Assembly (NCBI RefSeq): GCF_019693215.1
Contig: NZ_CP081183.1
Span: 1,305,226 to 1,369,225 of the forward strand
Source: Salinarchaeum sp. IM2453
Lineage (GTDB): Archaea > Halobacteriota > Halobacteria > Halobacteriales > Salinarchaeaceae
Length of the DNA stretch: 64,000 nt
Reading direction: 5' to 3'
Of the stretch, positions 41,959 to 46,152 are shown one piece after another. Every line of letters begins with the position of its first letter. Within the stretch, counting starts at the first letter, position 1. Below the pieces are notes generated by a model. It was given only the letters and a program-made list of their open reading frames with translations. It did no database searches and was not told the origin of the DNA. A program made the translations under genes and the position numbers.

Positions 41959-42660
41959 TTAATTGATCCGCTCAATAATTGATCTAGGTAGCATTGATGT
42001 CGGCATATTCTCTCGAATATGCCTAACAACATCTTTCGGGCTTTTTGTTTCAAGTGGAGGTAAACATGCGACTTTATGCCCGGTCATCCGCTCTAGTTCA
42101 TCAGGATTTGTTTGTTCGGCCGCAGTCTGCCCCTCGAATTCATTGAGAATAATCCCTTCAACAGACAAGTTCCGGTCTTCTAATGCTTCGACAGTTAGGC
42201 TAGTATGATTTAACGTTCCTAATCCTGACCGGGCAACGACTATTACTGGCAGTTTAAGATCCGCTATAAGATCAATGACTTCGTAATCCTCGGTAATTGG
42301 AACCCGAAGACCCCCGATTCCTTCGATAATAGCAAATTCATGTTCTGCTGCTATTGATCTGGTATCTTCTAACACTGCTTCATAGCAAATATCCCTGCCT
42401 TCTTTTGTAGCCGCAACACGGGGAGCAAGTGCTGGTTCGAATTGATGAAGGCAACTGGATGCTTTTATGCTCTCACAAACTTCAGCTACCCTCCCAGCAT
42501 CATCATCTTGTGGGGCCCCTGTCTGGGCGGGCTTGATAGCGTGAGCATCAATATAGACTTCACGCAGCCAGCCCGTTAATCCTGCAGTAACAAACGTTTT
42601 ACCGACGCTGGTACCCGTACCAGCGACAAATACACCACTAATTGTATCGGATTTTCTCAT
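41959..42660 (-). CDS. bioD: Dethiobiotin synthetase
   Basis: This enzyme closes the ureido ring of 7,8-diaminononanoate using CO2 and ATP. It has 233 residues. The P-loop 'GTGTSVGKTFVTAGL' is close to the N-terminus, followed by the substrate lysine region 'AHAIKPAQTGAPQDDDAG' and 'FAIIEGIGGLRVPI' (the usual E-G-(A/V)-G-G). I placed the start at ATG 42660 ('MRKSDTISGVFVAG'), overlapping the bioF stop by four bases; an upstream in-frame Met at 42711 would lie deep in bioF. Third gene of bioU-bioF-bioD. The ~200 bases downstream hold no gene. Confidence 0.92.
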   Translation of the reverse strand: MRKSDTISGVFVAGTGTSVGKTFVTAGLTGWLREVYIDAHAIKPAQTGAPQDDDAGRVAEVCESIKASSCLHQFEPALAPRVAATKEGRDICYEAVLEDTRSIAAEHEFAIIEGIGGLRVPITEDYEVIDLIADLKLPVIVVARSGLGTLNHTSLTVEALEDRNLSVEGIILNEFEGQTAAEQTNPDELERMTGHKVACLPPLETKSPKDVVRHIRENMPTSMLPRSIIERIN

Positions 42661-43865
42661 GCAGAAATAACCTCCGTATCTTCTCCCGCCTTTCGAAATG
42701 CTTTGATGCATGTTTCAATATCCGACTTATCATGTGTTGCCATTGGTGTAATACGAATCCTACTAGTCCCTTCAGGTACGGTTGGGGGACGAATTGGAGG
42801 AGCAACGATTCCTTGTTTTCTGACCTTCCTTCCTATCTCTAAGGCCTTCTTTCGATCACCGATCATTACTGGAAGTATATGTGAGTTCCCTAGCACTTCG
42901 TATCCTGCTGATGTAAGTCCACTTCGAAGGTGCTCAACATTCTCCCAAAGTTGCTCTGTACGATTACCGTTACGCGCAATTTTCAACGCCTTATACGCAG
43001 CACCCACAGCAGGTGGGGCAAGTCCAGTAGAGAACATAAATGATCTCGCGTTATTTATTAGATATTTGATCAAGGTTTTATTGCCAGCGACATATCCTCC
43101 CTGGCTCGCTAGTGCTTTTGAAAGAGTACCCACTTGAACGTCGATACGGTCTTCAAGCCCTTCGCGTTGGATGATCCCACCTCCATTGCCGAACAGTCCG
43201 GTAGCATGCGCCTCATCTGCCATAATCCACGCATTATATCTCTCCGCAACATCGCAGAGTTGTTTCAATGGGGCTATATCTCCATCCATGCTAAACACTG
43301 TATCCGTTATGACAAGCCAACGCTCATTTGGTTCTCGATTCGTGGTGGCGTCAGACATTTTTGTAGCTAAATCGCCGGTGTTACAGTGATCATAGACAAC
43401 TGTTTCTGCGTCAGCGAGACGACATCCGTCGATGATACTGGCATGATTCAATTCATCTGAAAAAACTAAATCGGGTTCAAGTGCAGCAATAGTACCTACA
43501 TTAGCGGCATACCCCGAGGAGAAAACCAATACTTTTTCAGTTTCTTTGCACTCAGCAATCTCCTGCTCTAAGGTGTGGTGAAGATCAGTGTCGCCCGTCA
43601 GCAACCTACTTGCCCCAGTTCCTGATCCTACATTACGGATTGCTTCCTCAGCAGCTTGCCGAACTCGCTTGTCACTGATCAATCCGAGATAGTTATTTGA
43701 TGCAAATATTTTCTCTTCAGATCCAAACTTAGCACCTTCATCGGTACGTCTTGTTAGAAACCGAGACCTTGCCCCAATCGACTCTGCTGGCTCAAGATTT
43801 CGCATGAGGTTTGCTGATCTATGTTCGTTAAGCCTATGCTCTAAATCGAAGTTTCCTGTAGTCAT
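42657..43865 (-). CDS. bioF: 8-amino-7-oxononanoate synthase
   Basis: This PLP enzyme joins pimeloyl thioester and alanine to make KAPA. The 402 residues have 'NYLGLISDKRV', 'GSGTGASRLLTGDTDLHHTLEQEIA', 'DELNHASIIDGCRL', 'MADEAHATGLFGNGG' and the PLP lysine in 'VGTLSKALASQGGYVAG'. It could be mistaken for 2-amino-3-ketobutyrate ligase or serine palmitoyltransferase relatives, but the flanking bioD and BioU-like gene support BioF. Coupled to bioD by a four-base overlap; 51 bases follow the bioU stop. Confidence 0.92.
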   Translation of the reverse strand: MTTGNFDLEHRLNEHRSANLMRNLEPAESIGARSRFLTRRTDEGAKFGSEEKIFASNNYLGLISDKRVRQAAEEAIRNVGSGTGASRLLTGDTDLHHTLEQEIAECKETEKVLVFSSGYAANVGTIAALEPDLVFSDELNHASIIDGCRLADAETVVYDHCNTGDLATKMSDATTNREPNERWLVITDTVFSMDGDIAPLKQLCDVAERYNAWIMADEAHATGLFGNGGGIIQREGLEDRIDVQVGTLSKALASQGGYVAGNKTLIKYLINNARSFMFSTGLAPPAVGAAYKALKIARNGNRTEQLWENVEHLRSGLTSAGYEVLGNSHILPVMIGDRKKALEIGRKVRKQGIVAPPIRPPTVPEGTSRIRITPMATHDKSDIETCIKAFRKAGEDTEVISA

Positions 43866-43916
43866 ATTCTTGACCTGATTAAAATCGCCTATTGTCCGAA
43901 TCGTTGAATAACCGAA

Positions 43917-45002
43917 CTAGAACCTAGGCATTAGATCTGCTGGTCCATAGACACCATAATCCCCGACACGATTGCGCATAACACCAGCTTTCATATATCC
44001 CAGTGCAGGCCCGTTTACGTTGGCTGCCATAGATGTATTATCATCGAGCTGGAACATGTTTGTAGCCTTCTTCCCATCGAAGGTAGTTCCTGTTACTCTG
44101 ACTGTCGTCGTTGTTGGTTTTTCATCAGAGCGCACATCAAGTACTCCCCCAACGGAAACATTATCAGCATCGCAGATGCCTGACCGTTCTAACAAAATAT
44201 CGTCGGCGTGTTCCATGTCATGAAACTCCAGAACACCATCGTGTTCATCAATAATCTCTTCAATCTCTTCCGTGGAAAGTCCACGGGCAGTCTTGATATC
44301 GTATCCATCGAGATGAGCAATATCCTCGCGAACAGTTCCTCGATTGTCTGTATAACCGGACTTGAGACCGACACCCCACCAAATCTCGACTTCTTCTACT
44401 TTGACAAATGATTGTGCAGCTATGGCAGCTGCTCCAGTCAGAAATCCAGGCGTTGCTCCAGCCCCACAAATAAACGTAATACCAGCTTTTTTGAAAGCAT
44501 TTTCACGCTCATCGAGCATCTCAATAACACGAGAACGTTTGAGCACATCTACAAGGACTCCTGAATACTCCGCTTCAGCAAACCGATCAGAAATCCGCGG
44601 AATAAAATCATGTTCAAGATTAGGTAGAGCAATAAGAACAGCATCAAACATGTCTGAATTTACAATAATATCGTCGATCGGCGTTTCAGTTGACTTGCCC
44701 TGAGCTGATGCGACTATGCCAGCACTTTCACCCGTTTGTTTGACTCCAGTTTTCATCCCAATCTTGCTTCCACCATTATTTGCTGCTTTGCCCAATTCCT
44801 CGCTCTCTCCACTCCCGTCACCTGCTATGTTCCCCTCGGTTGCGTCAAGTAACTCCTTGACATCAAGTCCCTCGTAGTCAACAGCAATTCCGTTACGGTC
44901 ACAGGCTGCAACGGGCGTAACTCCATCCTTATACTGACTGATCTCAAGAGCTCGACGTCCGATTCCTCCAGTTCCAAGCACAGCAAAGTTGATATCAGTC
45001 AT
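43917..45002 (-). CDS. bioU: BioU-like lysine-dependent KAPA-to-DAN enzyme
   Basis: BioU, known from cyanobacteria and haloarchaea, makes 7,8-diaminononanoate by giving up the amino group of its own lysine, so each molecule works once. This 361-residue protein has an N-terminal Rossmann motif 'VLGTGGIGRRALE' (GxGxxG, 10-15), a fold resembling Asp-semialdehyde or saccharopine dehydrogenases, and 'GVLVDVLKRSRVIEML' with Lys155 as the candidate donor (Synechocystis Lys124 plus an insert). Residues ~60-105 form a Gly/Ser/Lys-rich insert. It opens the biotin operon, in place of bioA, which is absent here. Generic annotation would call it a saccharopine dehydrogenase-like oxidoreductase. Identity is inferred from context and motif memory. 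Confidence 0.78.
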   Translation of the reverse strand: MTDINFAVLGTGGIGRRALEISQYKDGVTPVAACDRNGIAVDYEGLDVKELLDATEGNIAGDGSGESEELGKAANNGGSKIGMKTGVKQTGESAGIVASAQGKSTETPIDDIIVNSDMFDAVLIALPNLEHDFIPRISDRFAEAEYSGVLVDVLKRSRVIEMLDERENAFKKAGITFICGAGATPGFLTGAAAIAAQSFVKVEEVEIWWGVGLKSGYTDNRGTVREDIAHLDGYDIKTARGLSTEEIEEIIDEHDGVLEFHDMEHADDILLERSGICDADNVSVGGVLDVRSDEKPTTTTVRVTGTTFDGKKATNMFQLDDNTSMAANVNGPALGYMKAGVMRNRVGDYGVYGPADLMPRF

Positions 45003-45240
45003 TGTGCTAAGTTGTCAACGTTTGTATGTTGTTCGTATCTAACTCTGTGGTCTTTGCACCTCTTGACGTGTCGTTGCTGTACCGTTTCATTTCCTGGCTC
45101 AGCAATTATCCCGTCAACCATAGTAATAGAATTGGTTAACGAGGTCTTAGTATTTATGATTTATTGCAGATTTGATGATTAATACATACCTCCATTTTTC
45201 AGTGTGGAATATTCAAATTCTTGAGGATACTAGTGACTGT

Positions 45241-45672
45241 ATGACCCGTATATCGTCCGACCACGATACGATTGATTCTGTTCGAGCGACTGTTGTCTCA
45301 CATGGAACTCGACGGAAGATAGCTATTGAACTTCCGTCTGATGTATCGATTCCCGCTGGAGAAGTCTTCCAGATCTCAATGTCTGGCAATTTGTATCACG
45401 GACGATTCGATTCCTTTGCAGATGGTCTTCGTCTTCTTGGTGTATATCAGACTCCAGACGTCGCTCGTGACCCAGCGGAAGGAGATGATCATCTTTCATC
45501 GTGGCTTACCGATGAAGGACTAACCGCTGGACGATCAGTACACGTTGATATTATCGAACCTGAATACAAGTATGGCCTCAGACCACCTGGAGAACAAGTC
45601 GTCTACACCGATCCTGATCCTCCGGACAGTAGTCTCCAGTCTATTGCAGAACAATTTTCAGACAACATCTGA
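45241..45672 (+). CDS. Conserved haloarchaeal protein (possibly DUF7112)
   Basis: This 143-residue acidic protein looks beta-rich ('DSVRATVVSHGTRRKIAIELP', 'VFQISMSGNLYHGRFDSF', 'SVHVDIIEPEYKYGLRPPGEQVVY'). I placed the start at ATG 45241; the reading frame continues upstream to 45172, but those 23 residues ('MMINTYLHFSVWNIQ') are hydrophobic and unlike a haloarchaeal N-terminus. I associate the pattern with DUF7112, a haloarchaea-only family, from memory. It diverges from bioU and is followed by another orphan gene on the same strand. Confidence 0.7.
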   Translation: MTRISSDHDTIDSVRATVVSHGTRRKIAIELPSDVSIPAGEVFQISMSGNLYHGRFDSFADGLRLLGVYQTPDVARDPAEGDDHLSSWLTDEGLTAGRSVHVDIIEPEYKYGLRPPGEQVVYTDPDPPDSSLQSIAEQFSDNI

Positions 45673-45735
45673 TCACTTGAGCTTCATTGTCCCCGTATCC
45701 ACGATGCTTTTTCCTTTGCTCGTATAATGCCACTT

Positions 45736-46152
45736 ATGAGCACTAATAAACGCGAAGCATTTCTCACAGGCGATCGTCCTGGTGACATTGCAGTGTATAT
45801 TGCAGACCAGTTAGTTGATGATCCTGATGCTCTATCTGACCACGGGCACGTTACCGATCAAGGAACTGTCCTTGTCCTCGACGGCGAAACTGGACGGAAG
45901 ATATTCAAATCTGCAACAGGAATGGACGCCCTCGGGTTTGCGAAATCTGCTATGGATACTGAAGGCGAAATTGCCAATGATCTAACCGGCGGGGTGTGTC
46001 CCGAATGCGGGAAAAATACTATTCAACTCCTCCTTGCCTTTGCCGAAGAGCAAAACGAAGCTGTTGGCGGAATATACGCCGAAGGTGATGTCATCCATGC
46101 GTACGCCCAATGTGACTGCGGGGCTCGCTATTCCGACAAATGGACCCTGTAA
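45736..46152 (+). CDS. Conserved haloarchaeal protein with CxxC pairs (possibly DUF5807)
   Basis: This 138-residue protein begins 'MSTNKREAFLTGDRPGDIAVY'. The C-terminal half has 'GVCPECGKNTIQLL' and 'AYAQCDCGARYSDKW', four cysteines in two pairs that could hold one zinc ion (zinc-ribbon-like). I recall the family as DUF5807 but cannot confirm it. ATG 45736 is preferred over ATG 45727 because the extra 'MPL' is unlikely to be conserved. It is convergent with the DHH phosphoesterase gene, 11 bases between ends. Confidence 0.72.
   Translation: MSTNKREAFLTGDRPGDIAVYIADQLVDDPDALSDHGHVTDQGTVLVLDGETGRKIFKSATGMDALGFAKSAMDTEGEIANDLTGGVCPECGKNTIQLLLAFAEEQNEAVGGIYAEGDVIHAYAQCDCGARYSDKWTL

Follow-up and report, generated by a model that had tools for sequence, protein, structure and literature searches.

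The biotin cluster and its surroundings

Positions 41959-45002 of the window, the 64,000-nucleotide stretch of Salinarchaeum sp. IM2453 that was analysed, hold three intact open reading frames on the minus strand, in the transcription order bioU, bioF, bioD (Table 1). The window has a GC content of 46.8% and lies within one 2.66 Mb contig; the genome is 98.6% complete and its relatives are haloarchaea. Family scans agree with the biotin cluster that an earlier note had read from the letters. TIGR00858 was the top match of BioF among all families (E = 1.4e-123, 412 bits, slightly below the 426-bit cut-off), and BioD scored 133 bits against TIGR00347, for which the cut-off is 83. The bioU and bioF genes are separated by 51 nt, an operon-like spacing. 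At 42660 the bioF stop codon overlaps the likely start of bioD in the tetranucleotide ATGA, indicating that the listed bioD start at 42711, which gives a product of 250 aa, is probably 51 nt too early.

Table 1. Features of the biotin cluster and its flank, in window positions
Feature	Position	Strand	Description
bioD	41959..42660	minus	Dethiobiotin synthase; TIGR00347; 233 aa when started at the probable ATG, 42660
bioF	42657..43865	minus	8-amino-7-oxononanoate synthase, 402 aa; TIGR00858
bioU	43917..45002	minus	361 aa; from its sequence, predicted AON to DAN(-carbamate) enzyme in place of BioA
His265 codon of bioU	44208..44210	minus	Corresponds to His233 of Slr0355
Lys155 codon of bioU	44538..44540	minus	Predicted amino donor; corresponds to Lys124 of Slr0355
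BioU residues 56-95	44718..44837	minus	Gly-rich, hypervariable 40-residue insertion (alignment, composition)
Palindrome	45111..45142		CCGTCAACC-N14-GGTTAACGA; BirA-operator-like; 108 nt upstream of bioU
DUF7112 protein gene	45172-45672	plus	Divergent neighbour of bioU
DUF5807 protein gene	45727-46152	plus	Divergent neighbour of bioU

With its place between bioU and the divergent DUF7112 gene, the palindrome could in principle serve either of the two.

Relationship of the first protein to BioU

BioU was first described in cyanobacteria. The first protein of the cluster matches the NCBIfam BioU family (NF047886) over residues 87-361 with an expect score of 2.4e-96, and Slr0355, the BioU of Synechocystis (6IR4), with a score of 4e-78. 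The identity with Slr0355 spans the last 265 residues, of which 120 (45%) are the same; the N-terminal Rossmann part aligns weakly (15 bits), and a Pfam scan of the protein returned nothing above the Pfam cut-offs. The score of 322.6 bits falls below the NCBIfam cut-off of 600 bits, which is an annotation threshold and not a biological feature. No genome in a sample of 146 from the haloarchaeal order passed that cut-off, which probably fits cyanobacterial members of the family only.

The earlier note expected automated annotation to produce a "saccharopine dehydrogenase-like" label, and in this it was mistaken: in public records the bioU genes of relatives are called "transcriptional regulator" or hypothetical. 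In the Haloferax larsenii and Haladaptatus records a "transcriptional regulator" stands between a correctly named bioB and bioF. This label, which marks a gap in annotation, may have arisen because BioU scores below the NCBIfam cut-off.

An AlphaFold model of the protein (mean pLDDT 80.5) placed five BioU entries at the top of a Foldseek search, with expect scores from 4.3e-40 (6ITD) to 2.8e-38 and TM scores of 0.83/0.91. The first fold outside BioU was diaminopimelate dehydrogenase, at 1.4e-9. Within the model, pLDDT is below 50 at residues 59-91, so that most of the Gly-rich insertion is predicted to be disordered. The insertion belongs to the haloarchaeal BioU branch; it measures 20-50 residues in most members and is much smaller in the deepest relatives.

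Lys155, which the earlier note singled out as the candidate amino donor, lies within VLVDVLKRSRVI and aligns with the lysine that is replaced by alanine in 6ITD and 6K37 (titled K124A). His265 aligns with the histidine that is alanine in 6K38 (titled H233A). Both residues are invariant, in 26 of 26 aligned haloarchaeal BioUs and in all 80 named haloarchaeal loci. In both the profile search and the structural model, Synechocystis BioU is the only close match, and we regard the identification of this archaeal protein as a real BioU, which was also the view of the earlier note, as well supported by sequence and predicted fold. It shares with Slr0355 (6IR4, 6ITD, 6K36, 6K37, 6K38) the fold, the donor lysine, the second mutated histidine and the place in the pathway. 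It differs in being archaeal, in its operon with bioF and bioD, and in the disordered insertion in the Rossmann part that most haloarchaeal members carry. With BioA, the SAM:AON transaminase, it shares the pathway step but neither sequence nor fold; BioA is a PLP enzyme that performs many turnovers.

In a published summary (PMC12915131), Slr0355 uses NAD(P)H to couple AON to its lysine; after carboxylation of the adduct, diaminononanoate (DAN)-carbamate is released with NAD(P)+. The lysine is spent and the enzyme is single-turnover. The haloarchaeal homologue might instead make diaminononanoate without suicide, regenerating its lysine (for example by re-amination of allysine) and turning over many times. 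The insertion peculiar to the haloarchaeal branch, together with its divergent N-terminal part, leaves some room for such a change. We nonetheless consider it quite improbable, given the single turnover of the Synechocystis enzyme, the invariance of Lys155 and His265, and the lack of any conserved extra gene beside the cluster other than the replication gene rfcL, recognised from its sequence. A lysine-sacrificing BioU is the reading that we carry forward.

Biotin genes elsewhere in the genome and a BirA-operator-like site

The earlier note recorded neither bioA nor bioB in the window. A search of the whole genome likewise found no bioA, the best matches being the class III transaminases ArgD/LysJ, HemL and a HemL-like protein. 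It did find bioB, at C1:1182615-1183544 (358 bits, cut-off 225), 166 kb away from the cluster and with no adjoining bio genes. BioU therefore stands in the place of BioA in a genome that has BioF, BioD and BioB.

The transaminase search and the fold comparison bear together on a second alternative, that the first gene of the cluster encodes some other NAD(P)-dependent dehydrogenase, of the diaminopimelate or lysine type, or the "transcriptional regulator" of the public records, and that ArgD/LysJ performs the BioA step on the side. BioU does share a fold superfamily with the diaminopimelate and lysine dehydrogenases, the regulator label does exist, and ArgD-type BioA-like matches are present in the genome. 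But 30 orders of magnitude separate the BioU match from the next fold, the gene is tightly linked to, and co-occurs with, bioB, bioF and bioD, and the ArgD match reaches 406 and 402 bits as ArgD/LysJ, well above its 236 bits as BioA. The ArgD/LysJ gene also sits inside an arginine/lysine cluster. We judge this alternative very improbable and retain the assignment to BioU.

Two routes to the pimeloyl group were sought. BioW is absent from this genome and was found in 1 of the 146 genomes, and the BioC search returned 13 weak methyltransferase matches, none near the cut-off. A gene of about 510 aa beside bioD in 7 relatives was considered as a pimeloyl-CoA ligase and rejected, its sequence resembling the large subunit of replication factor C. 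This gene, conserved next to bioD, was recognised by eye and we take it to be rfcL. Genes of 672-710 aa beside bioB in BioU-less genomes were also set aside; they are mutually unrelated (a response regulator, a glycosidase, an acyl-CoA ligase and one of unknown kind). The one genome with bioW is a divergent member of the haloarchaeal order, in which this gene for pimeloyl-CoA ligase lies between bioB and bioU (L037:2892-3662; G011:C76:2946-3629); this suggests that pimelate feeds the pathway at least there.

The genome also encodes a BirA (C1:1682479-1683162) with an HTH_11 domain (PF08279), a ligase domain (PF03099) and a C-terminal domain (PF02237), and a BioY (C1:1248570-1249004) whose adjoining gene reads as an ABC ATPase. 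BioY is present in 131 of the 146 genomes, with or without BioU.

In bacteria the BirA operator has an AACC-N14/15-GGTT core, and its half-site reads TTGTnAACC. With one mismatch allowed, the motif TCGTnAACC-N14-GGTTnACGA occurs once in the window, at the palindrome upstream of bioU, and in 0 of 100 shuffles; nowhere else in the 2.66 Mb genome is the motif matched as well. At three or fewer mismatches the genome holds 12 sites, compared with 19 for a reversed control pattern. Two others of the 12 lie at the start of bioB and 15 nt before the start of bioY. The distance of the palindrome from bioU (108 nt) exceeds the distances at bioB and bioY. All 94 loci examined carry the motif at the start of bioB, its non-coding left half conserved nearly as well as the right. 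Because the motif was refined on these loci, they do not count as independent evidence; the bioY site does, and the bioU site had been noticed before the others.

The BirA of this genome resembles bacterial group II BirA in joining a ligase to an N-terminal HTH and in the AACC-N14/15-GGTT palindrome before biotin genes; its putative sites differ in reading TCGTnAACC, and in haloarchaea the site overlaps the bioB start. The operator-like site and the neighbourhood would place bioU in the biotin regulon, a predicted regulatory link that the earlier note had missed. By analogy with bacteria, biotin would repress the cluster through a bifunctional BirA acting at the palindrome.

The same observations bear on the idea that the cluster is a decaying remnant in an organism that has given up biotin synthesis and relies on import through BioY. 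BioY is present, bioB lies outside the operon on a long branch, the BioU branch is also long (0.47), and neither BioW nor a BioC above the cut-off was found. Nevertheless all genes are intact, the active-site residues are kept, operator-like sites persist at bioU, bioB and bioY, and the wide occurrence of BioY is irrespective of BioU. Decay is in our estimation unlikely, and a working pathway is preferred.

BioU among haloarchaea and the proposed pathway

Strong BioU matches were found in 47, and BioB in 51, of the 146 genomes of the order. Both proteins are encoded in 46 genomes, only BioU in 1 (a fragmented assembly), only BioB in 5 and neither in 94 (Fisher p = 5e-31, the genomes being counted without correction for relatedness). 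The genes are arranged bioB-bioU-bioF-bioD, in that order and on one strand, in 71 of the 80 named haloarchaeal loci. In a sample of 197 genomes spanning the phylum, BioU was seen only in the haloarchaeal order.

Several genomes depart from this pattern. Four that carry BioB without BioU (G023, G066, G125 and G128; loci L039, L040, L041 and L042) have a bioB with an operator-like site, and G023 has bioB-bioF beside rfcL, lacking bioU and bioD. In such genomes the pathway may be decaying, dethiobiotin may be salvaged, or a different enzyme may stand in for the missing one. Halorientalis salina NEN8 has two bioU loci (L099 and L106) on two scaffolds. Large plasmids carry bioU in Haloferax, Haladaptatus, Natronococcus and Natrinema (NC_019976, NZ_CP111041, NZ_CP078064, NZ_CP119793, NZ_CP119784, NZ_CP120471 and CP031304). 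The biotin pathway may therefore move between haloarchaea, which fits its patchy distribution.

The cluster in the window has the genes and order of the U-F-D part of the haloarchaeal operon, as found in Haloferax larsenii and Haladaptatus, and differs from it in having no operonic bioB. In the BioU tree the window protein groups with Halobiforma nitratireducens and a Salinarchaeum group of its own family (support 99/93), in both of which bioB lies directly ahead of bioU. The BioB of the genome itself forms a long branch apart from the Salinarchaeum BioBs. Most simply, the operon would have lost its bioB while that gene's operator stayed before bioU, and the divergent bioB would serve from elsewhere; the length of the BioB branch makes this reading tentative. 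An alignment test for leftover bioB coding sequence between the palindrome and bioU did not convince: 17 of 500 shuffles scored as well, the match consists essentially of the operator half-site, and the operator alone has support.

We consider it very likely that the cluster converts a pimeloyl thioester to dethiobiotin through BioF, a lysine-sacrificing BioU and BioD, with the unlinked BioB completing the pathway and BirA repressing it. Homology, fold, conservation of the lysine and His265, the operon, the lack of bioA, the presence of bioB, birA and bioY, and the operator-like site were all seen here; the steps of catalysis and the limit of one turnover are carried over from Synechocystis BioU. 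BioF would form AON (KAPA) from a pimeloyl group and alanine. Using NAD(P)H, BioU would couple the 7-keto group of AON to the side-chain amine of Lys155. The bound product would be carboxylated, and oxidation by NAD(P)+ would then release diaminononanoate-carbamate and leave Lys155 as an aldehyde (allysine), so that one BioU would be spent for each molecule made. BioD would close the ring and BioB would add sulfur.

A survey of 31 Halobacteria in 2018 found bioF in 18, bioD in 14 and bioB in 19, and bioA and bioW in none (PMC6138646). In an Lsm mutant of Haloferax mediterranei, HFX_5076 (bioD), HFX_5077 (bioF) and HFX_5079 (bioB) fall together (PMC10779274), and we infer that HFX_5078 is bioU. 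The literature that we found ties BioU to cyanobacteria and none of it to haloarchaea, the founding paper (Nat Chem Biol 2020) lying outside the search; it contained no biochemical work on a haloarchaeal BioU.

BioU plausibly accounts for the lack of bioA in the surveyed Halobacteria, as a concrete candidate for the step recorded as absent from haloarchaeal biotin synthesis. The kind of enzyme is already known; here it would fill a published gap in a way that can be tested. By analogy with Synechocystis, it would extend a rare single-turnover, self-consuming enzyme to the archaea. We lean towards the broader view that biotin synthesis in about one third of the sampled haloarchaea follows a BirA-controlled BioB-BioU-BioF-BioD route, undescribed in the literature found, which draws on some pimeloyl source and in which a lysine-sacrificing enzyme would fill the bioA hole.
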